Of a DNA stretch of 64,000 nt, positions 34,023 through 58,875 are shown piece after piece. The notes under the pieces were generated by a model. It was not told where the DNA came from and ran no database searches. It saw only the letters and a list, made by a program, of their open reading frames with translations. The first letter of the stretch is position 1. The number at the start of each line of letters is the position of its first letter. The DNA is from Prorocentrum cordatum. Taxonomy: Eukaryota; Sar; Dinophyceae; Prorocentrales; Prorocentraceae. A program made the translations under genes and the position numbers. The stretch covers positions 520,871 through 584,870 of the forward strand of contig CAUYUJ010020159.1 in NCBI GenBank assembly GCA_963575745.1. Reading direction: 5' to 3'.

Positions 34023-34069
34023 GCTCACTGTTCATCGAACCCCGCGTCGCGATCTCGCACGCGGCCTCG

Positions 34070-36240: not shown

Positions 36241-37480
36241 CGCCAGATATACTGGCACATCCTACAGTCCTACAAAGTGACAGAGGTTGATGACGACCTG
36301 CACGATTTCGAGCGCCTTAAAGAACTGAGGATGAGAGATGAAGATTTGCAACGTTTTATTCCTGACTGGGACGCTTTACGATTGGAGTGCCGAGAAGCAC
36401 CCGATCCAAAGATCTTGGAATCTCTGTTTCGTACACATAGTCGGAGACATGCCTGGATGAAACAAGACATGTATGAGTACCAGCGCATGAAGATCAGCGA
36501 CCCTAATCGTACCTATGATTGGCTCCGACAGCGCGTCCTGGACGTACTGGAGCTCAAACAATTGGAGAAGAATCAGAATAAGTTACGGTACGAACGTGAG
36601 ACACGGTCTCAAGTCAATGTTTGCGCTGCCTGGAAGAAAGGCAACTGTCGCAATGGTGAACGATGCAAGGCTTTGCATACCTATTCCAGGGATTGGAAGA
36701 ACAACAAATCTTCCAGAGCATCGACAGCTGGTGGCAACTCCCGCCGCAGCGTGTCAACCCCTGCGAACCACAAGAAGCCAGCATCGAAACCATTTGGCTT
36801 CGAGTTCGCCAAGCGCAACACATGCACCAGAGGCGACAAGTGCAACTTCCCACACGTTGCACAGTGTAAAGACTTCGCACAGAACAAGTGCCCTAAGGGC
36901 GACATATGCAAATACGCTCATCTTACACCTGGTGCGAAGACTCCCGAGCGAAGCCCGAGTCGACCACGGACCTCCAGTCAGGATAGTCGCGGCCCATCAC
37001 CATCCCGCGGATCAGGAAGCCAACGTTCTTCGCAACGCGGGGGGTTCCGCTACGCAAGCGACTCGCGCCATGGACGTGACAACCGACGCCACTACGACCG
37101 ATCTCGTTCATCCTCCAGGAGTTTTCCAGACTCTCGCAGTCAATCGGGAAGTCGATACGACAGATCTTCGAGATCTACCTCCCGAGGACGAGACAACCGT
37201 GGCGGCGGACGTGGCAGCCCACGCGGCCGTGATAGATCATACGGTAGTGACAGAGGACGTGGCAGACGTTCCCCGAGCCGTGGCTCGCCCCGTGGTTCTC
37301 CCTACGCCAGAGCACGTTCTCCAGCCAACTATCGACGTTCACGCCGTTCCGACCGCAGTTACGTCATTCGAGACAAGACCCTCATGGCCAACACTAAGGT
37401 CACTACGACATCTACCAAACCACGCCGTCGGATACGCTTCGACACACGTAATGTGGAATACTACCTACAAACCGTATCTG
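36241..37480 (+). pseudogene. Gag C-terminal part with three CCCH-type motifs and SR-rich tail
   Basis: Capsid end (DDLHDFERLKELRMRDEDLQ) followed by CAAWKKGNCRNGERCKALH (36,622-36,678; C-x7-C-x5-C-x3-H). A shorter CTRGDKCNFPH (36,823-36,855) lacks the first Cys. CKDFAQNKCPKGDICKYAH (36,865-36,921) is a full CCCH. Then about 140 residues of Ser/Arg/Gly repeats (RGGGRGSPRGRD type). CCCH fingers replace the CCHC knuckle usual in retroviral-type Gag and would bind the element's RNA. The frame leaves at about 37,440-37,480 with a +1 shift into the protease frame. Confidence 0.85.
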
Positions 37481-38083
37481 GCAGGGCCAGACATGGACAA
37501 GTGGAAGGAGATGCCGAATGAGGGTGACATTGTCATTGTACCAGACCCGATACCACAACGATGGTGGGATCAAAGTGCAGACGCTCTACGAGAATGTCAA
37601 AAAGAGGCACAGTTTTGGTACAAAGATCTGCATGACTATCGACACAACAAGGAGTCGGTGGTCACACCAACTGCGATCCGAGAATACGACGACGCTGTCA
37701 AGCAGTCATCAAAGACAGCCCAGACGAAGACAACGACGATGCAAGTCGACCCACCACGTTCGACTGCTGCATTGACGCGATCTTGGGTTCTCGACAGTGG
37801 TTCTGCGCATCATATTCAGGGTAAACACGAACTGACGCAGACCGAATCGGATCGCATATCTATTCGCGAAGAGCATATTCTGGAAACCGTCAACGGTGAT
37901 CGTACTGTCAACGAGCACTACGACATACGGCTACCCGAGGTTGGCTTACATAGTTCAGCCCTTGCCTTGCCAGACCGTCCATCCTTACTATCAGTTGGGA
38001 AATTGATTGAGGTTGATGGCTTTCGGCAGCTTTGGGACCCTGAGCTGGGCCACTTGCTTCAGGATCCGGGGGGCCAATGGTAG
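37450..38083 (+). pseudogene. Aspartic protease
   Basis: In the +1 frame the sequence runs MDKWKEMPNEGDIVIVPDPI, then the active site WVLDSGSAHHI (Asp codon 37,793-37,795), the copia-type DSGA/S-HH signature, and HSSALALPDRPSLLSVGKLI, where LLSVG is the second conserved block of copia proteases. It would process the Gag-Pol polyprotein. Ends at TAG 38,081-38,083. The same frame goes on into integrase, so the stop is a lesion. Confidence 0.85.
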
Positions 38084-39068
38084 AAGATTCCAGTCAACAA
38101 TAGAGTTCCAGAATTTCGACTCGACGACCTGACACTGATACCACCACCACGTCTATGCACTTCGTCAGCACCCCGACGTCGTCAGCGCAAGCGTTCATCC
38201 GCCCGCTGCAACGACATATGTTGGCGCTGCAAAACTACAGAGCAGTCAACAACTGCAGATGAGCAACGGCCCCACATAGGGACCTGCCCCAAGAGACCAC
38301 ATGTCGGCGAGGGAGGAGGAGCACGGACCGCTACGGTCGAAGAACCCCCCGACACAAATCACGCCGAGCCTGACGTGGACACAACCACCGACTCGCTTAT
38401 GTCTCAGACGCAGTGTTCTCCTCCAACATGCGGGGGGCTAGCAGATGCAGCTCAAGCAGATACCGACATACCGACAGAGACGCTCACACTAGTGCACCAC
38501 GACACTGATCGCGTTCTTCCAAACAGACAGAAGAAACCGATTGACCCGATGCATTACATGATCCACAGTCCAAAACACCCAGACTGTGAGATATGTTCTC
38601 GCACGATGGCACAGAATGCTCCGTGTCGACGACAGCGCAAACCACATCCACCGGCAGACCCCACCGACGAGGACACAGCCTACGAGGCTTGTATCCCGAA
38701 GAAGTTTGGGGAAGCTCTAACTGCAGACCATATCGTCTTGGCCAAAGACGATGCCGCAGACAAGCACGGCGACAAGCATGCACTTGTTGTCCTGGATAGA
38801 TACACCGGCATCTTCATGGCTTACCCAGCACTACATAAAGACGCAGCTACTACAAAGGCATCCTTCCAACAGTTCATCGCCGCGAACGATGAGGTGAAGC
38901 ACATCTACACAGACAATTCTGGAGAGCTTCAGAAGGCTTGCCGCCAACTGGGATGGAGACATGACGCTAGTACGCCGCATCGTCCGCAAGCGAATGGATT
39001 GATCGAGCGCATCGTCAAGATTGTCATTCTCGGTACGAGAGCTGTGTTGCATATGTCTGGTCTGGGAC
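38084..39068 (+). pseudogene. Integrase, zinc-binding and catalytic domains
   Basis: The zinc-binding segment HSPKHPDCEIC (38,564-38,596) precedes the DDE core: D in TADHIVL (38,726), D in YTDNSGEL (38,912) and E in ANGLIERIV (39,005). PHRPQANGLIER is the classic end of the core. D-to-D is 62 codons and D-to-E is 31. At about 39,068 a one-base frameshift moves the pattern SGLG / WWKEAMQAFCC to the next segment's frame. Would insert the cDNA and create the 5-bp target duplication. Confidence 0.88.
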
Positions 39069-41034
39069 ATGGTGGAAAGAGGCCATGCAAGCCTTTTGCT
39101 GTGGACACAGTTTTGCGCACCCATCCACGGGCGCTGCTGCCCTCAGCGAAGAGCACGTCGACAAGACAGCTCATGAAAAACGTTTTGGAGAAAGTTTTCC
39201 CGGGCACTGCATTCCATTTGGTGCTCGGATCTTCTGGAAATACTTCAACCCCGAGATTAATAACGAGACTGCGAAGTTCAAAGAAAATACTCGGGAAGGG
39301 TTATTCATGGGTTACCATTTACACTCTGGTGGACGATGGTCAGGTGATTATCTTGTCTTGGACACGGCTACATATGCCAAGAACCCCGATGGCGAACTGC
39401 GTCACGTGCACAGAGTCAAAGACATCATCATCCCTGATGGCAAGTTCACCTGCCCAGTGAAAGAAGGTACTCTGCGACACCACAACCCTGAGGCACACGA
39501 CGAGGTCAAGGCATCTACCTCTCGCCCCTTGGGCGACAAACCAATGCCCGATCCTCCACTTTCCTACCCTAATGACCCATCTATGATGACAACGGAAGAC
39601 AACACCGCTGATATCCACGCATCGGCCTCTGAAGTTGTTGCACCAGCGCCGGAGCCCGACTACTGGGAACAGCGCGGATATTGCGTCATCAGACATATAC
39701 GTACTCCACGCAAGAAATTGTTCATCCCGACGGACGACGTCATGAACATACCTGTACTTGTTGATCAATTCGACGTGACACGAGATTTCAAGACGACTTC
39801 TACTTTTGAAGGAGAAAGCGACTTTCGCGATGTTTGGGGCGGTGTCAGCGCCAACGACCACAGGGGGTTGAGCGAGCCATGGACCGGCCTGGTTCGATTC
39901 TATGAGCTTCCAAAAATAACACCAGATGGCAAAATGGTGGTCCGTGGCCGCGAGACACGTGTACAGACTACTACGCGTCCTGATCACATTCTTCCCGAGC
40001 ATTGGAAAACCTTATCTCGTGGACAACAGAAGAAAGAAATCGAGTACGCCGAAGACGTTAAACGAGCTCGTGAGATTCGTGACCGAGCTGCACTTCGAGT
40101 GTGGACAAGACAGGACAAACAGGCCAATAATTTCCGTACCACTGCAGCCGGCGGACCCGCATGGAATGCTGTGGAACGAAGGATTACGTACGACACCGAC
40201 AATGGCGCGGTCATCCGTGACGAAAACGTCAAGGGCGTGACGAACAAAGAGATACTGTATGCCAAACTACCTGGTGGGCCACGTGACATTACTACGGTAC
40301 TGTACTACCGCCAACCCCCACAACAGCACGCTGGAGACGAACGTGCTTTGGTACTTGTGGATAGTGAGGGGACCGACTTTGGGACCATGAACCCGCTTAT
40401 ACGCCAGTTCACCCAGTCGGTAGCAATGCCCACTATGCCACGTGAGACGACCTATACACCGGCACACAGAGACAAAATTCCCGATTCCTCATGGGCACGC
40501 CCGGCCCTAGTTACCAGAAGTCTGAGTAAGAGAGAAGTTGCCGCAGAACCACGTGCACAGGAAGCCCTACGAAAAGAATACGAGCGACTGGAGAAGAAAC
40601 AAACGTGGGTGTTGGAAACTGTTGCAGAAAAAGCTGATATTGAGCCACAGTCTATTCGCACTGGGACGAAAGTTCATTTCTTCAACATCTTGGAGCTATC
40701 TTCAGTCAAACACGAGGAACTTCCACCTGATCTACCTAAATTCAAGGGCCGAGTGGTGGTTCAGGGCAATACAGGCAAAGATGAAACTGGTTTGGCCGCC
40801 ACATTCGCCGACGCCGCTTCCAGTGCTTCGCATATTGAGGCTTCCAAACTTTGCGATGCTACTGCGTTATTGCCACAATATGCGGGCGAACAAAGTGATG
40901 CACCTGGAGCCTACACGCAGGCATTACTGTATGGCGACGGACGAATCGATCCAGTTGATATTTGGATTACCATACCCAAATGGCGCCAACCGACATCCTG
41001 GTCAAAATACAAGAAGCCAGTGTGCCGGTTATGA
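39069..41034 (+). pseudogene. Integrase C-terminus, connector and first half of reverse transcriptase
   Basis: Opens with TAHEKRFGESFPGHCIPFGA, EGLFMGYHLHSGGRWSGDYL and VHRVKDIIIPD, the usual integrase tail of copia-class elements. A long polar connector of about 380 codons follows. Then the RT fingers and palm: EALRKEYERLEKKQTWVLET, LPKFKGRVVVQGNTGKDETG and DAPGAYTQALLYGD, where the D before APGAY is the first RT catalytic Asp position. TGA at 41,032-41,034 interrupts VCRL*LALYGHPLAG, where relatives have VCRL-x-ALYG, so it is a single nonsense change. Confidence 0.85.
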
Positions 41035-41560
41035 TTGGCACTATATGGACACCCTCTTGCAGGTGTCTTTTGGGAACGAAAGTGTCGCACATGCTTGGAA
41101 AGCGTTGGTTTCGAGCCTATTCCAGGATGGGAATGCGTATGGAGACACAACAAACTGGGACTGATACTTTCAGTATATGTGGACGACTTCAAATTAGCCG
41201 GACCAGCTAACAATCTACAAGCCGGCTGGGATGACATCCGCAAAAGCGGTATTGACTTGGATCCACCTACTCCATGCTCGCAATATCTTGGCTGTGGACA
41301 ACAGGCATGCGATGTGCCGCAGAACATATTCGACAAAAGAATGTTTACCATACGACCTATGTTGCCCGTGCACAATGAAAAAAATTACAATACAGCCAAA
41401 CAAGTTCGTGGAGTTCGACATGACATGCTTGGTCTTACTGATCAGTGCATTGAGCGGTACCTGGAATGCGCTTCCAAGCGCGCCCAGGGACCCGGGTCAC
41501 GTCGGAAACGGTCCGACTCGCCGAGGACTTCGATCCAAATCGCCTGTCTCCTCCGGGTCG
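41035..41560 (+). pseudogene. Reverse transcriptase, second half (YVDD)
   Basis: In the same frame as the preceding segment: ALYGHPLAGVFWERKCRTCL, then LILSVYVDDFKLAGP with the catalytic YVDD at 41,176-41,187, and the thumb-like RHDMLGLTDQCIERYLECA. Between about 41,480 and 41,570 the frame shifts +1 into the Ser/Pro-rich linker before RNase H. All conserved RT blocks are present apart from the nonsense codon just upstream. Confidence 0.88.
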
Positions 41561-42169
41561 GTCGCCAGACCTACTAGCGTTCTCAACGCACGGCCGCGAT
41601 CATCCAGCCCAGCAAGATCGGTCGATACACCATCTACTACAACAGAATCCATACCAGTCACATACGATGACCAACCTGACGCCGAAACCCCTGGCATCGA
41701 GGACACCTCCTTCACCGATTCCGATTACTCCGATGAGGGCATCCTTGGCCAGGACGCGGCGAGTGTACTGATGAAGATTCTCTACCTGGCACGTGGCTGT
41801 CGTTTCGATCTTCTACATCCAGTATGTATGCTAGCCAGAGAAAGTACCACATGGAATACCACGTGTGATAAACGTCTACATCGATTGATATGCTACATCA
41901 AAACGACGCGTACACATTGTCTACACGGATGGATAGGCGATTCGTCAGACAAGTTATCCGCCATGCTCTTCACTGACGCCTCGTTCGCCGATTGCATTAC
42001 ATCCTCTAAGTCCACTACCGGCGTCTTCGCCGCGCTTGTTGGACCTAATACGTTCTTCCCGGTCAACGCTGTGTGTAAGAAACAAACGGTTGTATCGCAC
42101 TCATCTACAGAATCCGAGATCGTTGCTCTTGACTCAGCACTACGACTGGAAGGATTACCACTACTCTAA
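41561..42169 (+). pseudogene. RNase H domain, first part
   Basis: Ser/Pro/Asp linker, then ASVLMKILYLARGCRFDLLH, CDKRLHRLICYIKTTRTHC, and the RNase H core LFTDASFADCITSSKSTTGV with CKKQTVVSHSSTESEIVALD, the copia-type catalytic blocks (D in TDAS, E in STESE). TAA at 42,167-42,169 falls in LPLL*LWEAVV. Relatives continue through this point, so it is another lesion. Would degrade the RNA strand during reverse transcription. Confidence 0.85.
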
Positions 42170-43801
42170 TTATGGGAAGCCGTGGTGGGAGTTGCCAACA
42201 CATGCAAAGAGAAGAATACTTGCCTTGGCTGCCAGGGGCGCGCCGACACGGCGACGTGTCCGACGTTGGCCGCCAAAAAGAGGCGCAAGCCGTCGCCTCG
42301 CAAGGCACCCCCCACAAGGGGATCTTCTCCTAGCCGTAGGCAACTACCGCTGAAGACGGAGTTACCGACGCCTCCAAAGAGGCGTACGATATCCCATGAG
42401 GGTACCGTATTGCACGTGGATCCAGAACCTGCTCAGGAGATCAGCTCTCCCAAAGTGCGTCTTATCGTCCTCGAGGATAACCAGGCCGTGATCAAAATTG
42501 TCCAAAAGGGACGTGCACCAGCAGTTCGTCATCTTCATCGTACTCATCGTATCAACCTGGATTGGATATGTGAGACATGCCAACTTGAACATATTGAGCT
42601 CAAGTATGTAGGTACAAAACTGCAGATTGCAGATATGATGACCAAACATTTCGAGCCAAAGAAAGCAGACCTCTGGAGGGACCTCTTGGAACACTCGCTC
42701 ATCTTTCCCGTTACTCCGGTACAATGTCCTCCAAAGAAACCATGGAAACCATTGAAAGGGCCTCGGAGGCCCGACGGTTTACCTCGTGTTGCTGAACCTC
42801 CAAAACTGGATGGATGTCCGGAAGTATGCAAAATCTTACTTACAGAGAAAGAAAGATGGGGCGAGGTAGGATCAGAATGTGGAATGCAGTGCGTTGGACA
42901 AGCCAATCACGAGGGCATATGTGCATGCATGCACCACCTTGGTGCACCCGCTGCAGCTACCGGTTCGCGCACACCTCGTTCGAGAGCACGTTCCCCGCAC
43001 GGTAGACAGCCCCGCCGTCCTCCTTCACCTCCCCAGGATACAGAGAGGTCTAGGACACTCATTATGCGTTCGTGCCGCAGCAATTTTACGACTCGAGCTA
43101 CAAAGCTTACAAGCATCCTGTTCGCCGTGTGCGAGGCGCAAATAAGTGAGATCGGTTCTAATCCCGATACCCCCATCCACGAGATGGATCAGGCACAGCC
43201 GCTCCACCTCATCGGCTGGCCCATCGGCTGCGACGCCGAGTACGACCCGAACGCCAAGGACGACGACCGCGTGGGCTTCACGTACCACGCTCAAACTGGT
43301 CGCCCTCGTGATCCTGATGATGGATACATATGCATACATCAACGGCGCGCTGATCGCAGTGCAGATTTTGATCTCCGCGTACTCGACGAACCCACTATTC
43401 GAGAAGTTGCCCGCTCTGCGTCCGCTGACGTCAAGAGTTGGATCAGCGAAACTGGTGGATCAGTCGGCGGCGGCGCCAACTACGAGTACAGCACGATTAC
43501 GGCTACACCATGGCTGTCTGTCATGAGGGCCATGTGCATGATCTCCAGCCTCTTCACTCGTAATTCGTCTGTACAAGAAAGTGTTCGTGGCTTACATGAT
43601 CATTTGAATGCAGTGATCTCAGGAGCGCACCGCAAATGTCCGCCAATGGAGGACCTCACGACGGTGATATTGAAGACGGAGTGGATTATGATTCACAACG
43701 ATTGGTCCAACATTGGCAGTGCAGTACTGGGACAATATGCCGAGGACAGCGTTCAGGATACAAAATACTATTATGGGAAGTGGTATTTGTGCACCTTCTG
43801 A
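42170..43801 (+). pseudogene. RNase H end fused to accessory region, part A
   Basis: In frame after the TAA: an Arg/Pro-rich insert, then VLEDNQAVIKIVQKGRAPAV and LKYVGTKLQIADMMTKHFEP, the normal end of copia RNase H (about 42,470-42,690). The frame does not stop there. It continues with WGEVGSECGMQCVGQANHEG and ICACMHHLGAP (a Cys/His cluster), a linker, and a domain with DQAQPLHLIGWPIGCDAEYD, DDGYICIHQRRADRSADFDL and VILKTEWIMIHNDWSNIGSA. The accessory part is therefore a continuation of Pol, not a separate gene. Its function is unknown to me. Confidence 0.75.
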
Positions 43802-44165
43802 TGTATACAGCAATGGATTGACAACTCCAAGCTATGCTCCTAAACTTGATCGTGGAAAGATCAAGTTACCCACACGCCCACCGGGCTTAGCCAGGACATC
43901 AGATACTGCGGGGCACATCGGCCACGTTGTTGAAGATAATCTTGTCACCGGAATGTGGGCATTTTCCGACATTAACCAGACAAGCAAATTCCGCCGTAAG
44001 GTCAGTACATGGCTGACTGCACGCGGAGGCTTTGGAGGTATTGGATCATACTCCAAGACGGTGGCAACACCATCCGGTCACCCAGACGGCTGGCAGGCAC
44101 TACCAGAGTACGACGAAACTATGACGAGTACTTATCGTTGGCAACCATACGACGATCGAGGGCTC
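43790..44165 (+). pseudogene. Accessory region, part B
   Basis: After a frameshift near 43,790 the sequence continues as DVYSNGLTTPSYAPKLDRGK, HIGHVVEDNLVTGMWAFSDI and TSKFRRKVSTWLTARGGFGG, ending in YDETMTSTYRWQPYDDRG, where the frame shifts again at about 44,160. Balanced, folded-protein composition. No family recognised. Confidence 0.55.
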
Positions 44166-45234
44166 TGTCTTCATTGGCGAGGCCCCCGCTGAGGTTGACC
44201 CTGGTCTTACTCCTGGTCCTGATATAGACCCACTTGAGCTTGAACAAGCAAAGTACAACGCGTTTTGTGGTGGTCGGTTGGTTTCTATTCTTCTTTCAGA
44301 CAACGGGTGGTACTCACTCGTACAGGAAGATCTGGGACTTCTCTTGCATCATGCCTTTGGTCCATCAGGGCACGCATACAAATGGACCAACTTGTACACC
44401 GGATCAACATGGATTATGCAGCCCAAGAAAGGGTCCAAGGCCGCCAAGCACAAGAAGTACCCAAGTCACGGCATCGACGAGCTCAACAGTCCACGGAAGC
44501 GAGATCATCTCGCCAAAGTATCAAGCGTTGGTCTTGTACCGTTATTTATGCCGTGCCTCAATCGCGCGGAATGCATGGGTGGCGCTACCCTCGAGCACTT
44601 ACCGACCATCATCCGCGACGACATCATGATGTGGGCATTCTCCCTTGGCAATCACAAAGAATGGTTCAAACAGAACGACACGCCGATTGGCCAATATGGC
44701 ATTCAATTGCCAGAGGCTGGTGGAGACACCCGCTGTGATATGGCAGAGCTCCGTGAACAGCGTACGCAGACACAGGAGAGCCGTACCACAGCTATTCTCA
44801 GCAACCAGTTCGAGTCCACCCTCGAGCAGCGCAACATGATCAAGATGATCCGCGAGGCCAGAGGCCTGATGTTATACAGCGACAGTGCCTCTATCAAGAA
44901 GTGGCGCGAATTAAATGAGGCCATCTGGAATTATTGGGCCAGTGATTTTCCTGCACACGTGAAACGAATGCACTATTGCAGAGGCTTCAATGCCATGGTG
45001 GCATGGAGCGCAAACGACATCGCATGCGCCAACCACGGACAGAATACCGTGGACATGCGTCGACACGAGGATCGAGCACCTACTGCTGAGCGCGGGCTCC
45101 AGAAGATGGAATGTGAGGGCGGCGTCCCGACGCTCATGCCAGTACACGTACAAGTGGATGTATCACGCTTTGTCGATGTGATGCAGTACTTCCGTTGCCC
45201 TACGGTTATGGGGCCTGGCAAAGCAGCACAATGA
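44161..45234 (+). pseudogene. Accessory region, part C
   Basis: Reads GSVFIGEAPAEVDPGLTPGP, then SILLSDNGWYSLVQEDLGLL, a basic stretch GSKAAKHKKYPSHG, IIRDDIMMWAFSLGNHKEWF, NQFESTLEQRNMIKMIREAR and LNEAIWNYWASDFPAHVKRM. TGA at 45,232-45,234 is followed in the same frame by GAHPNFDWHTDDLVKAMQNR, which reads as continuing protein. I do not recognise it. The regular spacing of aromatic and charged residues argues for a folded domain rather than junk. Confidence 0.65.
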
Positions 45235-46434
45235 GGCGCGCATCCGAACTTTGATTGGCACACGGACGATTTGGTCAAGGCGATGCAAAATCGTGGTATT
45301 ACAGTTCTTCCATCAGACCACTGGGTAGAAGCGTACGATAGAATTACGCCTCAGGCATGGCATGCAAAACAGAACAATCACAACATGGCGATGGTTACGA
45401 CACAGTTCTGTGACGCAGTATGCTATCGTAATGTCTGCGCTTTGATTCAGTCACTGCCGTCTCAGCCGTATCCATTTAGACCTCCTATCATGACTCCCGT
45501 CACGGACGAGCAGGCCTACAGACAGGCCAAAGAGATCATGGAGGCTCTCGACTTTAGAGAGAGGATCACAAATGAATGGAAGAGAGATCTCAGCCTCACA
45601 ACGCTGATGACACAGACAGCAGGCGAGATGGCTCATTGTGCTTGGATGGCATCATGTGCCGATGGTACGCTGCCGGCATCACTGCCTGCTACCGCAGCTG
45701 ACCCAAGCATGCCTATTCCTGGAATCCCGACACAGCCACCAGCACTTGATCCTCGCGAGCCGAACAAGGCTATTCCTCAGAACGATCCATTTGGTCCTGC
45801 ATATGACGAGTTATTCAGTTCCCTCTTACTGCTGATCAACGACTACCCTGGGGCATGGGCATCCTGGGATTCAGTCGAGAAGCAAGAGCTCCTCCACCCC
45901 AAGATCATCAAAACAGTTGAGGATGCACATGCTGTAACTTGGGTTGTGTGTGAGCAGTTTCTACAGCAGATTACCGATTTGGACGGAGACGATGAGGCGA
46001 CCAAATCACGACTCATTGCAGAAGGCAACAGGTTGAACGCCCACCGTGTAGGCCCTGCTGCCGAGAACAAACAGACCATCGAAGCATGCAAAACATTCTT
46101 CACACAGAATGCATTGGATCGAGTGGCATTGGGACACGATCCTGATGTTCCGACTGCCGCATGGCGCGCGGCGGTTGAGGCGGGCCAGCCAGCGCCACCA
46201 GGCCCAGTGCCTGAGCCACTACAGCTTGGCCCGCAACCGATAGCCGTGCCAGCGCCATCACCGCCTGGCCCGCTCCCAAACCGCACGCCAGCAGACCAAT
46301 CGCCAGCAGATCAGCCCCCGAAAGCCGAGGCAGTCCCGATCCCCGACGACGGCATTGACCTAGATGCGATGGAGCTGGAGGCAACTCCTGCCGACGACGA
46401 CCCTTCTCCACACACGGTGAACTTATTGTCGTGA
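45235..46434 (+). pseudogene. Accessory region, part D
   Basis: In the same frame: NRGITVLPSDHWVEAYDRIT, CYRNVCALIQSLPSQPYPFR, then a long helical block (DELFSSLLLLINDYPGAWAS; IIKTVEDAHAVTWVVCEQFL) and a Pro/Ala linker (PAPPGPVPEPLQLGPQPIAV), ending DDGIDLDAMELEATPADDD. TGA at 46,432-46,434 is again followed in frame by coding-like sequence. The Pro-rich linker probably separates two domains of a polyprotein. Confidence 0.65.
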
Positions 46435-47073
46435 CAGGACAGCTGCGAACGTTCCATGTACGAAGACATCAGCCAGGTCGGGATGTTCGACAACGCATGC
46501 ACTATTCGAGAGTACAAGCTTCAAGCAGGCATCGTGGATGACCATCCGTACGTTTCTCCAGTATTGCGGGGTACATCCGCGACCAATGGAGTTGCTTGCC
46601 TGCAGAATGAGGAATGGTTCGATCAATTGCAACACGACGACTGTGTGATTGCTCATGCTCCCGATATTGTACAATCTGCTTGTTTTCCAGAATGGAAATG
46701 GATATCGTTACCACATTACGACGAGATTCGTTATGGTCCTGAATTACTTGATGAGTGGCTCGGAGATCCCAAATACATGAGCAATGACATCACGACGATG
46801 TTACGCCACGAGATCCACTACAAGAGGTTCCACATCAATCAATTCCACGATCGACGTATCAACATATGGCCGAAGACAACAGATCGTGAGTGGAAGATCC
46901 CCAGTAATTGGAAACCCTTTCAGGATATGGTCCAATGGAAATTCAGTGATCGTAAAAACCACAACGGACCATCCACCGATGCGGCCATGACGCACTTCAG
47001 AAAGGATGGTGAAAAAGATGGGTATCCCGATTGGAATGATTACTACCCGATCTTCATTATTCGCGCGTTCTAG
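46435..47073 (+). pseudogene. Accessory region, part E: N-terminal lobe of Tpt1-like domain
   Basis: Continues in frame: MYEDISQVGMFDNACTIREY, LQNEEWFDQLQHDDCVIAHA, then TTMLRHEIHYKRFHINQFHD (LRH at 46,801-46,809). Tpt1/KptA proteins start with a winged helix marked by an LRH motif, so this may be the same lobe. It ends in DWNDYYPIFIIRAF with TAG at 47,071-47,073. The next codons go on with KHIDPQKNRIEIYAKPI in frame. Homology of this part alone is uncertain. Confidence 0.55.
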
Positions 47074-48096
47074 AAACATATTGACCCGCAGAAGAATCGG
47101 ATTGAGATATACGCCAAACCAATCCCCGAAGGAGGCGACCCCAGCTGCTTCGACTGGAACAGCGTTATTGCCATTCGATGTGTTGGAGGCCACAGTTGCG
47201 TCAATCCATTTTCCAAACCATGGAACATGGGCTGGGAGAGCCTACAATGGACAGACGTGAAATACCTCCACCATGGCACGACATTCCGTGCTTGGCGCGA
47301 CATTCTCAAGACAGGGATCATTCCCGGCTATATCGATCCATCTTCTCAGAGAGACAAGTATTATAAACCATCACCGCGCACGGAGGCATTCTTCAGTTCC
47401 AGCGCATGCATAGACAATGTCCAGAAGAATCCCCACACCTCGGTACAGTCATACAAGTTCAATCACTACAAGAACGAGGTCGAGCTGGTGATCAACATGG
47501 AGATTGCCACAAAAGCTGGCTGCAGATTTTGGTTGGGCGCTCAAGGCGCTATTATGACAGAAGACGTGGTTCCCGCAGCGGCAGTCATTGCAATTCGCCG
47601 TCTCCAACCACGCCACGCGCACGGCCAGCAGATATGGCCGGAGGGCCCGCCCTGGGACTATCCGCCATTGGCCGCGAGACAACCATTGAGCAAATACGAA
47701 ATTTGTGCCGTTCTTCCTGGGCAGGAGTTCATCGATAACCCCCCTGGGATTACACCAGCTGACACGGATCACGATATGGATCAGCAGCCAAGGACACCAT
47801 CAGCATCAGCATCTTCGGCTCAGCGACCGATTGCCCCTCAGCTGGGGGCAACCCTTGCTGGCCGCATACCTGGCGCCGACGCCCTGCACGAACAAATGGC
47901 CCGCGCTATGATCGAAGAATGCGGGCGCAAAACAGAAGATAAAGAATGGTTGATCGCTATGTCATACTGCCGAGAGGCTCTTCGACCCATCACATCAAAT
48001 ATTACACAGAAAGATTGGAATCGTCGGCCTATATGTAATGATGTTCGCATGGGGGACTTCATTGTCACTAAGAATTGGGGATCTACCAAGTGTTAG
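47074..48096 (+). pseudogene. Accessory region, part F: Tpt1/KptA-like RNA 2'-phosphotransferase core
   Basis: Conserved Tpt1 blocks appear in order. IAIRCVGGHSCVN (R-C-V-G-G-H-S at 47,176-47,196) corresponds to IRAxQGHS. VKYLHHGTTFRAWRDILKTG (HHGT at 47,269-47,280) corresponds to LYHGT...W..I...G. A block near EAFFSSSACI stands where Tpt1 has RxHxHxS. EVELVINMEIATKAGCRFWL and QGAIMTEDVVPAAAV correspond to the VxLEIDxxxAxxxGxxFYxSxNGVxLTxxVPxxY end. Tpt1 removes a splice-junction 2'-phosphate from RNA using NAD+. The RxHxH Arg/His pair is not clearly preserved, so activity is doubtful. TAG at 48,094 is followed in frame by more coding-like sequence. Confidence 0.7.
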
Positions 48097-48820
48097 CATT
48101 ATGACAATCACTACCCCAAGGGCAATCACAACACCAAAGTCCTCATGAACAAGGGCCACATATACGGCCCAATCATTCATTTCGGAGTCTTTGACAAGTT
48201 CTCTGCGGCACAAATACCTATCCGCAACTACGGTTTACGATGGGTAAACATATGGTACAACGACAAAAGCATGCCTCTCAAGGGTGTTGTCTTTGCTTTA
48301 CCAGTACGTTCCGACATTGACCCGGGAGATATGAATACTGCGCTGGAAGGACCATCCTCATGCCGCGACAAACTACATCAGCATAAAACAGATGGTGATC
48401 TACCATATCTCGGAATGCCGAGCATTTATAAGCCACGTATCCCACGTACACCGACCAGACGGCCCGCTCCTCGGACACCCGATCCCGAAGAGCTGGTGGC
48501 CACGCCTGCCGAGGACACTGCTCCCGCGGACGATGGACCCCAACAAAAGGCAGGCCAATCTGCTGAACCTCTGGTTACCGTCATTGTGGATAGATCAAAC
48601 ATACCACTCACTGCCGAGGAGAAAGCGGCAAATGACAACATGAGAGCAGATCTACCAGCAGAGATCCAAGCAGACGAGCACGTCGACGCGAGCATCCTCG
48701 ACAATATTATCGACCCGCCAGAAGACTTCCTCAACCACCCCGACTACGATCCAGAGGAGGACTCAAAGTGGATCAAACAATCATATGACCACCGCATATA
48801 CCGCTGGACATCGCAGTTGT
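48097..48820 (+). pseudogene. Accessory region, part G
   Basis: In the same frame as the Tpt1-like core: KGHIYGPIIHFGVFDKFSAA, YGLRWVNIWYNDKSMPLKGV and GDLPYLGMPSIYKPRIPRTP, then an acidic Pro/Ala linker and DPPEDFLNHPDYDPEEDSKW. The first part may still belong to the Tpt1-like domain or be a second small domain. Near 48,810 the frame shifts into the next segment. Unrecognised beyond that. Confidence 0.55.
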
Positions 48821-50078
48821 TGGTGGACTCACCGATGATAAAGGTAAAATCATTGAGGTGCACACTGGCGCGGATAGATTTGTGGTGGTTAAAGCGCAGT
48901 CGTACTTACGATTTGAGATTCAATTTGGATCCAAAACATGGAACGCAGAGACATATTATTTGGATTACAGTCATACCCACAAGTGGGCACGTGACTTACC
49001 AATTTGCAGTGCAGGTAGCTTCTTCAAAAAGTTGGTACACTACCTGGACCCAGAGGTCATCGAGGAGTCGACTACAGGCGTCTTCCAATGGATTTCTAAA
49101 GTGTATCAAATCATATTGCTGGACAGTATTGCGGAGCTCCGTGATTTCACAAAAGATGCGATTCATCAGAACCATCCTGCATTCAAGACGTTGCGTGATC
49201 TATTTACACATTGCATCCAGACGTTCGGCAATCCAGGCTTCCCCGTATGGACGGAGCTGGTGGAAACACCTGCCGCGCCATGTGACCCAGGCGCGGAGCA
49301 GGACATTCCCCAGGATCCAGGCAGCGTTGCATCCGCAGCTCCAGATCAGGAAACCATTGTACGGATCATAGCCCAACAGAAGGGAATCAACCGCGAGGAG
49401 GGTGACAACGAGTCCGCCTTGCAGGAAGAGGCTAGCCGTATCCGTACAGAAAACGTATGCCATGGTGATACTGACGACGCGGACAACGACACGACCGAGC
49501 GCGTAGGACTGCCAGGGGAAAGACTGTCTAGGATCGAGATCGAGGGAATGAGCAGATCGATCGCTTCCCGCCCGGACGCCGAGATCAACCGCGATGCCAT
49601 GGATCAGATCGGCCGCAGTCTTGCTCGTAGTCGGGAAACTCGCTGGGGATCCCGTGAGCACCTCACGATTGACGGAGCCCCAGAAGATATTCAGCATGAT
49701 ATCGCGCGATGTCGGAATTGCGATCGCATCTTATCCCTAGGGATCGTTACAGATGAAGGTACCCTTTGTGACATCTGCTGGCAGTACACTGTTGCCGTAG
49801 GTGCTACGGGTAAAAGTACTGCTGTCGAGAGCGACCTGACATACCTCCAGAAGCTGACCCACTGGATTAAGACGACGCTCTCCCAGGATGACATCACGAG
49901 GTACATGAGAGACGGAGCGCAGGTCATCATGACGGGCAAGCGCTCTATTCCAGGCAATGAGAAAGACGTGCTGAGGAGAATGGCCAATTCCGCTAGGAAG
50001 AGGTATGAGAAGTGGGTCGCCTCTGGCTCCCCTCCTGCGCGCATGTGCAGATTGATGGGCGAGCGTGAGGACGACTGA
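48815..50078 (+). pseudogene. Accessory region, part H, with CxxC...CxxC finger
   Basis: Starts with VGGLTDDKGKIIEVHTGADR and RFVVVKAQSYLRFEIQFGSK, then KLVHYLDPEVIEESTTGVFQ, a charged linker, and a treble-clef or ribbon-like CRNCDRILSLGIVTDEGTLC..CW (49,710-49,778; C-x2-C, 15 residues, C-x2-C). It ends with helical LTHWIKTTLSQDDITRYMRD. TGA at 50,076-50,078 is followed in frame by continuing sequence. Zinc binding is inferred from spacing. Whether it binds nucleic acid or protein is open. Confidence 0.6.
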
Positions 50079-51047
50079 CCTCTATACCATCCATTTGCCA
50101 ATCTCATTCAGCGCTTTCTCAATGATTTGAAGTTCCACCACCAAATGACAGGCGCTCGTGTTAATAAAGGCAAGAACGCCTATACCATTGAGGACATGCG
50201 CGACGCATGTGAAATCCTCGAGACCAGCATCAGGACTGGCCAAGCTGGTCGGAAGAAGTGGTGGTTGAACGCAGGCAGACTCGACAGAAGCACGCGGCAG
50301 GCACGCGGACTTGTCACGATTGCCCTCCCCAGGGGGGATGGCGCCCGTGAGAGAGCCACGCAGCGCAAGCTTGCCGCGCTTGCTTACGTTGAACCCGCCT
50401 TGGGTTCCACTGACCAGAGGGGGTTTGATTCAGGGATGAGAACCGATCCGATCGAACCTGATACACACTCCCAGTACTCTGATGATGCCATGGAGCCACG
50501 CATGCCGCGGCGCCCGCCGCCGCCGCCGCGCCCCGCTCCTGGCGACGCTGCAGGGTCCAGCGCTTCTGGCGCGCAGGACTACATGCCCGCGGGGCCGCGC
50601 GGCACTGCAGCGCAGCGGCAGGACAGCGACGACAGCCGCAGACCTACGACACCTCCCCGCGCCAAGAGGGCGCGCATGGCGGAGGACTACGCTACATGGT
50701 GGCGCGACGAGCTGGAGGACAGCCAGTGGGGCCCCAGATACTGGAGCTACTACATCAAATGCTGGATATACATCACGGACAACAACGACGAGTTCGTCTA
50801 CGTCCGCGACATCCAGTACAATGAGTGGTTCCGCCACTGGATCCCGAGGACCCCTTGGGAGACCTTCGCAAGACGAGCTACGTGTCGCACGATGGCCACA
50901 GGATGTGGGACCGCAGGTTCTACGAGAGGGGCAACGCGTAGTAGAGTCGGCCGCCAGGCCCGCCGCTCGAAAGGCTTGAACTTCATCATATACAAGTTCG
51001 CCTTGAGCGGTGGCTATTATATTCTTTTAGGCCACTTCACTATCTAA
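50079..51047 (+). pseudogene. Accessory region, part I: C-terminal end
   Basis: In frame with part H: NLIQRFLNDLKFHHQMTGAR, AYTIEDMRDACEILETSIRT, KKWWLNAGRLDRSTRQARGL, a Pro-rich linker, the basic PRAKRARMAEDYATWWRDEL, and GPRYWSYYIKCWIYITDNND with WFRHWIPRTPWETFARRA. It ends at TAA 51,045-51,047 after a hydrophobic stretch that may already be frameshifted. The Trp/Tyr-rich block resembles no family I know. This is the last coding part before the 3' LTR. Confidence 0.55.
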
Positions 51048-51651
51048 GACAAGTGGCCACACATGCACACATATTTTGCGATAACCAAGGCAGCCTCCTA
51101 AGGAGCAACGCCAACGGGAGTCGCCAATACAGAATTTATACATATGCAACTTTTCGTGCTTATCAACGCGACTTTGCGTCTGGCCAGATATTTAGATGTG
51201 TTTCGTAACACGATCGTGTTCATCAACACGAACTCAGAATACATTTTTTTTACCGTTTACTCTTTAGACTTTGCTTACATTGCGTTGATAATGATCTGAC
51301 GGCCAGCTCTCTACAGACAGCTGGTGGCAACACCTGCCTCGCTTAGGCGAGGCAGATTCTGATGTTGCTTTAACTTGCTCAGATCCTCTTTCTCCGCCCA
51401 CCCGTGTCTCATTCTTCTCCGCCCTCGAGTGCCGAAGCGTTTTTTGGGGGCGCACCGAGGGGGCACCAAAGCGTGCTTGGCGAAGAAATAGGGACCCTGG
51501 GTGTTCCTTCTTACCTTACCTTGCAGCTGAGGCTATACTGATCTTGCGCTCAGCTGCCTGCAGACTTGAGGATTGAAGGAGTAAAAGGGTGACGGATTCT
51601 TTTCCTCTGTTCCCGAGTCCTACCCTCACGGGCGGGATTCGGGACGGGGTG
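51048..51651 (+). other. 3' untranslated region of the element with polypurine-like end
   Basis: Non-coding and AT-richer than the rest of the element. The last bases before the 3' LTR, GGCGGGATTCGGGACGGGGTG, are purine-rich and may serve as the polypurine tract that primes second-strand synthesis. Confidence 0.55.
51334..51355 (+). other. Perfect 9-bp stem hairpin in the 3' UTR
   Basis: CTGCCTCGC, loop TTAG, GCGAGGCAG. No U-run follows, so it is not a bacterial-type terminator. It may be an RNA structure in the element's transcript. Confidence 0.8.
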
Positions 51652-51848
51652 TGTGAATAGAACCCGTGTAATACCCTCATATATACTCCTTATCCTCACC
51701 TCTCCTGCGCCTGGCCGTTTGGGCTCAGGTATTGGGACAGATCGATCAGACCTTTGATCGTGCAGGGGGGAAAGACATCCATCTATCCCTCCTTCCCTCT
51801 ACCAGCGGATCAGGGGGTCTGTACCCTTGTACTTCAACCCCATACACA
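51652..51848 (+). repeat. 3' LTR
   Basis: 197 bp. Same ends and length as the 5' LTR, five substitutions by eye, no indels. Confidence 0.95.
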
Positions 51849-51853
51849 GCGAG
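51849..51853. repeat. Target-site duplication GCGAG, right
   Basis: Immediately after the CA end of the 3' LTR. Identical to 33,803-33,807. Confidence 0.95.
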
Positions 51854-51985: not shown

Positions 51986-52042
51986 CGCGGTGGCAACGCA
52001 ATTCAGCTCTCCGACGCTCTCGATTTCCCAGCGGGGTGGAAA

Positions 52043-52868
52043 CATGATCGACCCACGAACCCGGAAAGGAATACAGAAATGTAACGCATGGCAATGTTTC
52101 CAAAGACGCCTGATTGGGTGACGGGCAAATGCAATGCTGATTGTATCGATCTTGATGTACCGTGCCGAGGGCTGTGCTGTGCTGCGCCGTGCTGAATTGC
52201 GATGTGCCATGCCGCGGTTGTGCTCTATAGCGTCGTGGACCGAGTGTTCCTTTGCATCCGAGTCCTGACCGAACTGATCTGGATCTTAAGCTCGAGCGGC
52301 CTGAACACATAGTATCTGCCGCAGAGCTAATTGACAGGGGGGCATGCCAGGAGGACGCGCCGCGAAACGTCCCAAGGGACGCGCCAGGGGACGTGCCAGG
52401 GGACGTGCCATGGGGTCGCACCGTAGGACGTGCCAAGGGGACGCGCTACGGAACGTGCCAATGGATGTGCCCCGCGACGTGCCAGGCGGACTCGCCAAGG
52501 GACGCCCCACGGAACGTGTCAAGGAACGTGCCAGGTTGCAATGCTGATTGTATCGATCTTGATGTACCGTGCCGAAGGTCTGTGCTGTGCTGCACCGTGC
52601 TGAATTGCGATGTGCCATGCCGCGGTTGTGCTCTATAGCGTCGTGGATCGAGTCCTCCTTTGCATCCGAGTCCTGACCGAACTGATCTGGATCTTAAGCT
52701 CGAGCTGCCTGAACACATAGTATCTGCCGCCGAGCTAATTGACAGGGGGACATGCCAGGAGGACGCGCCGCGGAACGTCTCAAGGGACGCGCCAGGCGAC
52801 ATGCCAGGGGACGTGCCATGGGGACGCACCGCGGGACGTGCCAAGGGGACGCGCTACGGAACGTGCTG
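52043..52868. repeat. Composite dispersed repeat, copy 2, two tandem 5' blocks of about 410 bp
   Basis: AACATGATCGACCCACGAAC at 52,042, then GCAATGCTGATTGTATCGAT at about 52,131 and again at 52,539. Each unit carries CTGTGC repeats, GTCCTGACCGAACTGATCTG, and a run of GACGTGCCA/GGGACGCG. Confidence 0.92.
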
Positions 52869-53628
52869 GGACAAGCGTTTCGCTCGAGACATCCTGTCAA
52901 AATCCTCATTCTAGACATCCGCCTGAGCGACCTGGACACGTGAAAACAAACGTTTCGCTCAACACATCCTCAACACATTCTCATGCTAGACATCCGCCTG
53001 GGCGAACTGGACACGTGAAAACAAGTAGTTCGCTCGAGACATCCTCAACACATCTTCATGTGAGACGTCCGCCTGGGTGACCTGGGCACGTGAAAACAAG
53101 CGTTTCGCTCGAGACGTTTTCAACACCTCCTCATTCTAGACATCCGCCTTGGCGACCTGTACACGTGAAAGCAAACGTCTCGCTCGAGACATCCTCAACA
53201 CATCTTCATGTTAGACATCCGCCTGGGCGACCTGGACACGTGAAAACAAGCGTATCTCTCGAGACATTCTCAACACATCCTCATGCTAGGCATCATCCGC
53301 AAACAAGCATCTCGATCGAGACATCCTCATCACCTCCTCATTCTAGACATCCGCCTGGGCGACGAGGACGCGTGAAACCAAGCGTCTCGCTCGCGACACA
53401 TCCTCAACAAATCCTGGCGCTTGACCTCTGCCTGGGCAACCTGGAGGCGTGAAACCAAGCGTCTCGCTCGAGACATCCTCAAGACCTGGGCACGTGAAAC
53501 CAAGCATTTCACTTGAGAGATCCTCTACATTCTGGTCCCCAGGAGAGGACAATCCATAACACAAAACAAGCGTTTCGCTCGAGACATCCTCACGAAATTC
53601 TGAAAAACAAGCGTTTCGCCAGGGACAT
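52869..53628. repeat. 71-bp minisatellite, copy 2, about 10 units
   Basis: ACAAGCGTTTCGCTCGAGAC, ATCCTCAACACATCCTCATG, CTAGACATCCGCCTGGGCGA and CCTGGACACGTGAAA repeated. CGTCTCGCTCGAGACATCCT variants are near-palindromes, and GCATCTCGATCGAGAC occurs at about 53,306. Confidence 0.94.
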
Positions 53629-53760
53629 CCTCAAAAATAATTCCGCTGGTCCACCTCGACCTCGATATTTATCAGGGAATAATTCCGCCGGCCCACCTCA
53701 AGTCAGGTCTGGGGGTAAACATCTAAAAGAGAACCCTGGGCTGAAGCCCCTTCCGGGAAA
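53629..53760. repeat. Composite dispersed repeat, copy 2, 3' block
   Basis: Two AATAATTCCGC boxes around CTCGATATTTATCAGGG, then GGTAAACATCTAAAAGAGAA and CCCTTCCGGGAA. Matches 28,300 and 58,746. Confidence 0.92.
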
Positions 53761-54803: not shown

Positions 54804-55559
54804 TATGTTCTTTTTCGAACCAATGGGGATCTTTATTATTATAATTCACCCAAATATATTCAAACATATTCCGGGCTCTCGGATGGGGCCGGTTTTGGCC
54901 ATGGCGCCGGGCCTGGTCGGACGTCATCGCGATGCAGCCCGGCAGTGCCTGACCTCATCGCGGTGGCCCCCGGCAGCGTCTGCTTTCGCAGGCCCTTCGA
55001 AGTGCCATTCGGGGCGCTCGAATTCACGCGGCGGAATTCCGCGGTTGCCCGCTGGCGCAAAACAATTTTTTTCGAGTGGCACCCCGCCGATCGTTGATGC
55101 GGCGCGGCAACGCCGGCTTGCGCGATTGCGTTGGGCCCCTACGGGCGCCCCTGAAACCGCGCACCAAAGGTCAGTTTAGCCTAGGGTCATTCCTACGTGT
55201 AGTGTTTAGGTGGTTCATGGTTGCTGGTAAGGCTCTGGTGCGATGTTGGTTAGGTACTGGTGCAGTGCTGGCGCTGTGCTGGTGGGTTGTTTGCGGTCGG
55301 ACGCAGTTCTTGAAGGGTTAAAAGCAGCAGCGGCGTTGGTAGATCATTCTCTCAAGGGCTTCGCCCCCTGCCGCCGGCCCCCTGTCTCGGATAATGGGCT
55401 ATGCAAGAGCTGAATCATGAGGCCTCGGCGCCGCCGTGAAGCAGCATCGGCAAGAGAAGTGGAGATTCTGAAGATATTGTTGAACTCAATGTTGCTTTTT
55501 GAACCTGCCCCCGTATGATGTGCACTGAGGTTTCCCACAGAGTTTCACAAATGTAGTAA
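54804..55559. other. No confident gene
   Basis: A plus-strand frame at about 54,960-55,097 (RPFEVPFGALEFTRRNSAVA) is protein-like but short. (GGTGCTGG)-type repeats lie at 55,205-55,300. Nothing else. Confidence 0.35.
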
Positions 55560-56045
55560 ATACCATTGGTTTTTCGACCCTGACTCCGCCGATCTGCGTG
55601 AGGGGTGCCGCCGAATTTCAGACATGTGGCAAATCCCATTGGTTGTTCGACCCTGACTCCGCCGATCTGCGTGAGGGGTGCCGCCGGATTCCAGAAATGT
55701 GGCAAATCCTATAGGTTGTTCGACCCTGACTCCGCCGATCTGCGTGAGGGGTGCCGCCGGATTTCAGAAATGTGGCAAATCCCATTGGTTTTTCGATCTT
55801 GACTCCGCCGACTTGCGTGAGGGGTGCCGCCGAATTTCAAAAATGTGGCAAATCCCATTGGTTTTTCGATCCTGACTCCGCCGACTTGCGTGAGGGGTGC
55901 CGCCGAATTTCAAACATGAAATATAACCCATTGGTTTTTCGACCCTGACTCCGCCGATCTGCGTGAGGGGTGCCGCCGAATTTCAAAAACGAAATATACC
56001 CCATTGGTTGTTCGACCCTGACTCCGCCGATTTGCGTGATGGGTG
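55560..56045. repeat. 73-bp minisatellite, about 7 copies
   Basis: Unit contains CCATTGGTTTTTCGACCCTG, ACTCCGCCGATCTGCGTGAG and GGGTGCCGCCGAATTTCA. The period is 73, so each copy shifts frame. Confidence 0.96.
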
Positions 56046-57189: not shown

Positions 57190-57405
57190 ATGCGGCTTCT
57201 TGCTTCCCTGCAGCCGAGGGGCTGGCTCGAGGCGAGCTGCCCTCAGCAGGCTTCCGATATCAGAATCTCCACGGTGGTCCCTCGTGCGGTCGTGGATTCC
57301 TTTGCTCGAGACGGGTCGCTTTCGTCATTAGTCCCTCCGTTCAGCATCAGTGCGATGTCGGAGGCACCTTGGCGCCAAAGTGCTGGTGTGCGGGAAAAAA
57401 CATGA
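57190..57405 (+). CDS. Small frame behind the spliced-leader relic
   Basis: First ATG 15 bases after the leader relic. 71 codons: MRLLASLQPRGWLEASCPQQ, ISTVVPRAVVDSFARDGSLS, ending WRQSAGVREKT with TGA at 57,403-57,405, just where the composite repeat begins. If the leader relic is real this would be the retroposed coding sequence or its 5' remnant. Not recognised. A chance frame cannot be excluded. Confidence 0.3.
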   Translation: MRLLASLQPRGWLEASCPQQASDIRISTVVPRAVVDSFARDGSLSSLVPPFSISAMSEAPWRQSAGVREKT

Positions 57406-58320: not shown

Positions 58321-58745
58321 TGGGCGACCTGGACACGTGAAAACACGCGTTTCGCTCAAGACGTTCTCGGCACATCCTCATGCTAGACATCCGCCAAGGC
58401 AACCTGGACACGTGCAAACAAGCGTCTCGATCGAGACTTTCTCGACACATCCTCATGCTAGACATCCGCCTGGGCGACGAGGACGCGTGAAAACAAGCCT
58501 CTGGTTCGAGACATCCTCAACACATCCTCATGCTAGACATCTGTCTGGGCAACCTGGAGGCGTGAAACCAAGCGTCTCGCTCGAGACATCCTCGAGACCT
58601 GGGCACGTGAAAAAAAGCATTCCACTTGAGAGATCCTCTGAATTCAGGTCCCCAGGAGAGGACAAGCTATACCACAAAACAAGCGTTTCGCCCGGGACAT
58701 CCTCAACAAAATCTGAAACAAACAAGCGTCTCGCTAGGGACATCC
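58321..58745. repeat. 71-bp minisatellite, copy 3, about 6 units
   Basis: Same unit as at 52,869. Contains the perfect palindrome GTCTCGATCGAGAC near 58,423. Confidence 0.93.
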
Positions 58746-58875
58746 TCAAACATAATTCCGCCGGCCCACCTCGACCTCGATATTTATCAGGGAATAAATC
58801 CGCCGGCCCACCTCAAGTCAGGTCCGGGGGTAAACAGTTAAAAGAGAACCCTGGGCCTGCGCCCTTGCCGGGAAC
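58746..58875. repeat. Composite dispersed repeat, copy 3, 3' block
   Basis: Two AATAATTCCGCC/AATAAATCCGCC boxes and GGTAAACAGTTAAAAGAGAA, then CCCTTGCCGGGAACACATTC. The LINE ORF starts 18 bases later. Confidence 0.92.

Follow-up and report, generated by a model that had tools for sequence, protein, structure and literature searches.

Tpt1/KptA-type RNA 2'-phosphotransferase domains in two LTR-retrotransposon families of Prorocentrum cordatum

In the literature we found, retroelements equipped with additional nucleic-acid enzymes carry either DNA methyltransferases or an N6-methyladenosine (m6A) demethylase. Dinoflagellate SymbioLINE-Dnmt and SymbioDIRS-Dnmt3 hold a host-type nucleic-acid-modifying enzyme within retroelement open reading frames (ORFs), in several architectures and with the key residues kept (PMC5890265), and orchid Gypsy elements with the AlkB m6A demethylase combine a very large long terminal repeat (LTR) element with an added RNA-modifying enzyme (PMC9289625). 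KptA, the Tpt1-type RNA 2'-phosphotransferase, is known from phages and a few eukaryotic viruses, namely a sawfly nucleopolyhedrovirus, Bodo saltans mimivirus and the polyproteins of picorna-like and nido-like viruses (PMC9503650), and from EPlV2 and PVLADV1 (PMC11316551). Here we analyzed a stretch of 64,000 nucleotides from the dinoflagellate Prorocentrum cordatum (assembly GCA_963575745.1, contig CAUYUJ010020159.1, positions 520,871 to 584,870 of the forward strand; "the window"), for which a preliminary description made from the letters alone had proposed a Tpt1/KptA-like domain carried by a retrotransposon at 46801-48096, and we compared the element in the window (family A) with a second element family (family B) of the same genome.

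The two families share features with each of these systems and depart from them. SymbioLINE-Dnmt and SymbioDIRS-Dnmt3 place a DNA methyltransferase in long interspersed nuclear elements (LINE) and DIRS elements, whereas here an RNA 2'-phosphotransferase domain is found in copia-order LTR elements (PMC5890265). The orchid enzyme is encoded by a separate ORF of Ty3/Gypsy elements, removes methyl groups and has a demonstrated activity, whereas the present domain is known from sequence (PMC9289625). Viruses with KptA likewise have a Tpt1 domain in picorna-like and nido-like polyproteins, as well as in sawfly baculoviruses, but do without reverse transcription (PMC9503650, PMC11316551, PMC3230848). 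Certain retroviruses are listed with 2H domains and not KptA in PMC9503650, a paper whose main text does not contain the words retrotransposon, retro-element or transposon. PMC7955679 names PTS_2-RNA without retrotransposons, and papers containing both KptA and retrotransposon had the two words in unrelated places. No report of Tpt1 in a retroelement was found among the papers listed for the literature searched, with subscription papers and preprints outside its coverage.

Tpt1-like domains in two element families

The window copy of family A is an LTR retrotransposon of 18,041 bp (33808-51848) with Ty1/copia order, and its Tpt1-like domain lies between the LTRs at 46777-47601 in frame +1; all features of this copy given here are on the plus strand. 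The GHS, HGT and FWLGAQG blocks noted in the preliminary description were confirmed in that frame (IAIRCVGGHS at 47167-47196, LHHGTT at 47266-47283 and CRFWLGAQGA at 47521-47550), and the domain is indeed located there, but it starts slightly upstream of 46801 and ends well before 48096. The N-terminal (RNA) lobe (46777-47070) opens with the block MSNDITTMLRHE (46777-46812), which the preliminary description did not name, holding Arg at 46804-46806 and His at 46807-46809, and is followed by an in-frame TAG at 47071-47073. The rest of the domain (47074-47601) carries Arg at 47176-47178 within IRCVGGHS, HGT at 47272-47280, Arg at 47377-47379 and the FWLGAQG block. Stops in the same frame are found at 46432-46434, 47071-47073 and 48094-48096, the second of which renders the window copy unable to make the whole domain. 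The ORF at 47074-48093 matched the Pfam profile PF01885 (PTS_2-RNA) with E = 2.3e-5 and 25.0 bits, residues 32-163 aligning to positions 73-176 of the 177 in the profile.

The assembly (4.13 Gb, 21,875 contigs) belongs to a peridinin dinoflagellate, since peridinin-chlorophyll protein (PF02429) has 63 matches in it, the best at 3.2e-47, and none in 14 prokaryotic control genomes. Relatives, which number in the hundreds, were sought in the whole assembly, where the best 119 of 2289 candidates were scored and gave 119 family A matches. In alignment A2, composed of 19 genomic family A copies and the database protein fragment P0002, PF01885 was matched at E ≤ 1 by 19 of the 20 rows, that is, by all 19 genomic copies, while P0002 gave no match. 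Six of these genomic copies were also scored singly, and each exceeded the curated PF01885 cut-off of 26 bits (28.7-35.2 bits), the best reaching 1.6e-8 and 35.2 bits over profile positions 6-176, and in L052 and L057 the match spans positions 6 to 176, N-lobe included. Tpt1 enzymes have an Arg-His-Arg-Arg tetrad, and the enzyme of Clostridium thermocellum (CthTpt1) has Ser10, Lys11, Arg18 and His19 (PMC6333775). The N-lobe block found in most family A copies, MSKDI(A/T)TMLRHE, has the same S-K-x6-R-H spacing, with Asn in place of Lys in the window copy. Copy A1 (contig C16263) holds a single open frame of 2849 amino acids running from within the reverse transcriptase (RT) via RNase H to beyond the Tpt1-like domain, so that in A1 the domain belongs to the Pol-side polyprotein; together with the position between the LTRs, this bears out the proposed carriage by a retrotransposon. 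Against a profile built from Tpt1 of three sources (host, family B and bovine), 21 family A copies scored up to 25.9 bits (median 17.8) and 20,000 shuffles at most 11.8 bits, and against a profile of host and bovine Tpt1 the family A copies reached 14.2 bits versus 11.5 for the shuffles; the window copy was left out of these profile tests, which is why they cover 21 family A copies. A chance resemblance to Tpt1 was rejected on the PF01885 matches of the A2 rows, the single-copy scores and these shuffle controls.

Several results weigh against the assignment of family A. The window ORF (25.0 bits) and L015 (23.2 bits) fall just under the PF01885 cut-off, against NCBIfam the window ORF did no better than 0.12 and L015 had no match, and a PDB sequence search with family A returned no match. 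With a profile of family B alone, family A copies reached 3.3 bits and shuffles 16.8, without separation, and the family A profile separated neither family B nor host Tpt1 from shuffles; comparison of the A and B profiles by hhalign gave a probability of 0.3%, though the correct blocks were aligned. AlphaFold models of window-copy residues had predicted local distance difference test (pLDDT) values of 32.4 and 45.3, too low to use, and Foldseek with the low-confidence window model found no match at E ≤ 0.001. The ADP-ribosyltransferase (ART) triad of TRPT1 is H-H-V, with the motifs HGT, HLA and NGV (PMC7955679); family A keeps HGT but has FFS for HLA and QGA for NGV, and with these two motifs replaced its chemistry may differ. 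Judged by its motifs, family A is a remote Tpt1 relative with the tetrad whole and the ART core changed, and its identity as the Tpt1-type domain of a retrotransposon is, all results considered, close to certain.

Family B strengthens the case for Tpt1 identity. A PF01885 search of the assembly, in which the best 150 of 2877 candidates were scored, gave 150 matches, and the 22 of these inspected below the seven top-ranked ones (L008, C1962 and 20 others) all represent one element, family B. The C1962 copy has 251-bp LTRs (42090-42340 and 57804-58054, 99.2% identical) and two stop-free frames, ORF1 of 2941 and ORF2 of 2094 amino acids; no clear target-site duplication (TSD) was read for it. Open frames of 2926 to 2943 amino acids are present in twelve further PF01885 matches. 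ORF1 contains a CCHC knuckle (18.7 bits, cut-off 20.8), the PTS_2-RNA domain at residues 1563-1798 (1.2e-23, 84.5 bits, profile positions 4-177) and, by eye, a protease-like stretch, whereas ORF2 contains RVT_2 at 1552-1762 (2.5e-8, 34.3 bits, cut-off 31.6), upstream of which an integrase was read by eye without a profile match. The nearest solved structure to the family B domain is tRNA 2'-phosphotransferase 1 (7yw3, 1.4e-12), and the domain keeps the HGT and NGV motifs, with HF at the HLA position. Its identity as a Tpt1-type domain of a retrotransposon is even nearer to certainty than that of family A, and the domain is likely to be catalytic in family B and may be so in family A. A RING finger was also observed in ORF1 at residues 2307-2333 (zf-RING_11, 1.5e-8; L036/L037, C1962), between the Tpt1 domain and the protease-like stretch that follows the finger, which suggests a possible ubiquitin-ligase part in the family B Gag precursor.

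Comparison of A1 (four ORFs) with C1962 (two ORFs) revealed a single shared stretch of 166 residues (28.9% identity, 1.25e-9), with no further similarity under E = 0.2, and the two families are therefore distinct. The common stretch corresponds to about 40000-40450 of the window and to residues 164-316 of C1962 ORF2. The Tpt1-like domain is placed downstream of RNase H in family A and between the knuckle and the protease-like stretch in family B, an arrangement that could stem from two captures or from a single capture and later shuffling, between which the hhalign comparison of such divergent domains does not choose. Set beside Tpt1, KptA and TRPT1, the element domains have in common the tetrad, the SK-x6-RH block with the CthTpt1 spacing, HGT, the order of the blocks and the PF01885 match; they differ in lying inside retrotransposon polyproteins and in having an enlarged N-lobe, family A being strongly divergent.

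Conservation, selection and relatives

Conservation was assessed in 22 copies of each family. For family A, 20 copies were picked for open frames among the 119 listed, and two sequences with a frameshifted N-lobe (L043 and L055) were excluded from a set of 24, leaving 22 with the window copy included; for family B, 20 copies were taken from the 150 listed PF01885 matches. Relatives in family A accord with the preliminary description in keeping the catalytic Arg-His-Arg-Arg set (22, 21, 22 and 22 of 22 copies), the His of the GHS block (21/22), and the HGT block, with His and Gly in 22/22 and Thr in 19/22 (Ala in three). In family B the four tetrad residues are kept in 22, 22, 21 and 22 of 22 copies and the HGT motif in 22/22. 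These counts bear on whether the domain might be a module of Gag or Pol that binds RNA without catalysis, as would suit the winged-helix fold of the Tpt1 N-terminal lobe (PMC6333775), the longer N-lobes of the elements (the first and second tetrad Arg are spaced by 124 in family A and 104 in family B versus 50 in CthTpt1) and the loss of HLA and NGV from family A. However, almost every sampled copy in either family retains the tetrad as well as the HGT His that contacts NAD, and we consider such a module quite improbable.

The ratio of nonsynonymous to synonymous differences (pN/pS) was 0.264 in frame for family A (22 copies), compared to 1.34, 1.23 and 1.20 in two shifted frames and one reverse frame, and 0.216 in frame for family B (21 copies), the three other frames spanning 1.20-1.76 for A and B together. 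L074, which has a frame break at its end, was excluded from the family B selection counts; with it kept, the family B median synonymous divergence (dS) is undefined. The corresponding dN/dS fell from 0.47 at dS under 0.1 to 0.16 above 0.4 in family A, and from 0.44 to 0.14 with rising dS in family B (20 of 210 pairs were saturated and excluded), the pattern that constraint on active lineages and drift of dead copies would give. The Tpt1 domain is under purifying selection in both families, with the reservation that picking copies by open frame or profile score inflates the conservation seen. A 26-base degenerate pattern for the family A core RFWLGAQGA was present at 639 genome sites (317 + 322), and the reversed pattern at none. 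LTR elements do transduce pieces of host genes (PMC7264820), and the window copy is broken, as a functionless host gene fragment captured once by chance would be; set against this are the high copy number, the occurrence in two element families and the in-frame purifying selection, and we find the idea scarcely credible. A dead passenger was thus rejected as contradicted by the in-frame pN/pS and the 639 pattern sites; both element families maintain the domain as one of their own parts.

A foreign stretch in the window was also considered and rejected, given the 119 relatives scored and the 639 pattern sites in the same assembly. On contig C16597 (L030-L032), two tandem family A copies were observed, with 5204-8772 repeated at 23360-26920 (coordinates of the joined loci), apparently sharing an LTR.

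Ordinary host Tpt1-like genes are present in the same genome (L001, 186 bits; L002, 179 bits; and others), and therefore the elements are not replacing a missing host gene. Over the aligned parts, three family B copies were about 25-30% identical to five host sequences and 27-34% identical to bovine TRPT1. A further host-type Tpt1 relative occurs in several places (L005 and L006, each 135 bits with 316-amino-acid frames, and L007, 95.6 bits) and is possibly a duplicated or mobile gene. In the protein database, the window ORF gave two matches and the A2 profile thirteen, twelve of which (P0001, P0002 and P0007-P0016) are family A fragments in a EukProt set that bears the name of the green alga Pyramimonas sp. 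and are 53-92% identical to the best-matching sampled family A copy, reflecting either transfer or dinoflagellate contamination; the thirteenth is a 36-37% relative on a short ENA contig. The family B query matched four proteins, all of them Bos TRPT1. IMG/VR scans with A2 and A3 gave 12 and 14 pattern stretches and no relative, in a collection from which records near this genome may be excluded.

The family A element in the window

A repeat pair at 33801-34005 and 51645-51849 (96.6% identical) was trimmed by the TG...CA ends and the duplication to 197-bp LTRs, the 5' LTR at 33808-34004 and the 3' LTR at 51652-51848, flanked by the identical 5-bp TSDs GCGAG at 33803-33807 (left) and 51849-51853 (right). 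The 12 bases of the primer binding site GGTTATCAGCCC (34005-34016) follow the 5' LTR unchanged in the window copy, A1, A3, A4 and A5. Gag-region CCCH zinc fingers of the RNA-binding type extend from the first finger at 36622 to 36930, the right end being approximate; copy A1 (L021:9390-9998) has three CCCH zinc-finger stretches (PF00642, 6.2e-12), and the CCHC pattern had no match in the tested stretches of A1, A3 and A5. The motif WVLDSGSAHHI (37784-37816), which we take to be protease-like and of the aspartic type, gave no profile match. The integrase core was mapped from A1 to approximately 38758-38985, the A1 ORF matching PF00665 (rve) at 3.3e-6 and 27.7 bits, under the cut-off of 32.6. 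Motifs presumed to mark the RT lie at approximately 40560-41300, with YVDD at 41176-41202; the frame is broken within it, and no family A match to RVT_2 was obtained at E ≤ 1. A Ty1/copia-type RNase H, likewise presumed from its motifs (SSTESEIVALDSALR ... ADMMTKHF) and without a profile match, occupies 42101-42652, downstream of which family A has a long 3' region.

The under-cut-off rve match lies upstream of YVDD, and since integrase precedes RT, family A has the Ty1/copia order. LTR pairs are present in the window copy, A1, A3, A4 and A5, those of A1, A3 and A5 being 96.0-99.0% identical, and all four copies in which the two flanks were compared (window, A1, A3 and A5) have identical 5-bp TSDs of their own. 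The window copy is defective, with several stops and frame changes, including the stop within the Tpt1-like domain. With LTRs, TSDs, a primer site and many dispersed copies, family A is a true LTR retrotransposon.

The window has a GC content of 58.9%. Self-comparison also detected tandem arrays at 23232-24313, 55540-56045 and 60535-61254, with offsets of about 90, 73 and 90 bases, and similar stretches at 52040-53759 and 57398-58874 (86% identical over 0.8 kb, with more pieces beyond), pieces of which repeat also near 26-28 kb and form another interspersed repeat family.

Possible roles and primer sites

We consider it an even chance that the Tpt1/KptA-type domain in the polyproteins of these two LTR-retrotransposon families acts as an NAD+-dependent 2'-phosphate remover in the virus-like particle. 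Since the domain is encoded in the Gag-side ORF of family B and, in one copy of family A, in a single frame past RNase H, it would be packaged beside the genomic RNA and the primer tRNA; in the established biology of such elements, Gag-side or post-RNase H products are expected in the particle. There the domain would remove RNA 2'-phosphates with NAD+ and so leave the primer or template usable for reverse transcription, which a 2'-phosphate on the template or a phosphate on the primer end would be expected to block. Clearing such phosphates would most simply explain why an element carries the enzyme, and we put forward 2'-phosphate removal in the particle as the domain's role tentatively, as a reasoned guess.

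The primer sites of the two families suggest different substrates. In family A the site GGTTATCAGCC directly follows the 5' LTR in 5/5 copies, and its reverse complement resembles a tRNA anticodon arm. The best tRNA was tRNA-Ile(AAT) L085, with positions 30-40 of which the site pairs at 10 of 11 bases; of 1000 shuffled versions of the site, compared with the same 40 tRNAs, 11 scored as high. A34 is usually inosine in eukaryotic tRNA-Ile, in which case the site would pair 11/11. These matches suggest that family A is primed by a cleaved tRNA-Ile. Drosophila copia reportedly uses a half-tRNA primer, in work by Kikuchi from 1986; family A is alike in that its primer site fits an internal anticodon-arm stretch of a tRNA, and differs in that this would be tRNA-Ile and not initiator Met, if the match is right, and in that the primer is here read from DNA alone. 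Because the site pairs with an internal tRNA-Ile stretch, priming would need the tRNA to be cut near position 40, and the likely substrate of the family A domain would be the primer: a cut by a metal-independent nuclease would leave a phosphate-blocked end, and a tRNA-derived primer needs a free 3'-OH. ARAGORN detected no tRNA in the window or in 19 further loci. A pattern for the 5' part of the initiator tRNA gave 175 matches versus 110 for the reversed control, and the five stretches read held no tRNA.

The family B primer site TGGTAGCGGAGC, read in one copy, is one base off the GalEa site TGGTAGCAGAGC, which is given for the tRNA-Met 3' end (PMC5445492), and looks like the ordinary 3'-CCA kind. 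Since this primer looks ordinary, the family B enzyme would serve the template or repair, its substrate being the RNA template or re-ligated RNA. A role in priming has further points to meet: family B seemingly uses an intact tRNA end, and a single primer role then cannot cover both families; the tRNA comparison covered 40 of 62 tRNA matches; and two exact tRNA patterns had no match. Moreover, a half-tRNA primer need not be phosphate-blocked, as RNase P-like cleavage leaves a 3'-OH. In a bolder version, each of the two dissimilar families captured an RNA end-healing enzyme, and family A uses the packaged domain to clear the blocked 3' end of a tRNA-Ile cut in the anticodon arm and so to prime; we regard this version as rather doubtful.

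A role in counter-defence would fit both element families, the domain clearing 2'-phosphates where host ligase reseals nuclease-cut tRNAs or element RNA, and viral KptA has been read as RNA repair or RNA-end processing (PMC9503650). Yet no ligase, 2H phosphodiesterase or Macro partner appeared among the Pfam matches of the scanned element ORFs, and we think this role fairly unlikely. The domain might also attach ADP-ribose to element RNA at its 5'-phosphate ends, protecting this RNA from 5' exonuclease and diverting it from translation into the particle, since human TRPT1 gives 5'-monophosphate RNA an ADP-ribose cap that withstands XRN1 and does not support translation (PMC9458441). If the triad is altered, as it is in family A, a transferase could conceivably stop at the ADP-ribosylated product, but nothing in the sequence favours 5' ends, and capping seems to us unlikely.

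An RNA-repair enzyme of the tRNA-splicing pathway is thus kept under selection here by two element families, an indication that 2'-phosphates or blocked RNA ends genuinely hinder reverse transcription. The elements also give Tpt1 a defined setting, its reactions being unclear in taxa without the fungal-type ligase (PMC6333775). Furthermore, the finding makes it testable how copia-type elements obtain a usable half-tRNA primer, and primer healing in family A, if true, would be the first known case of a retroelement that brings a primer-repair enzyme with it.

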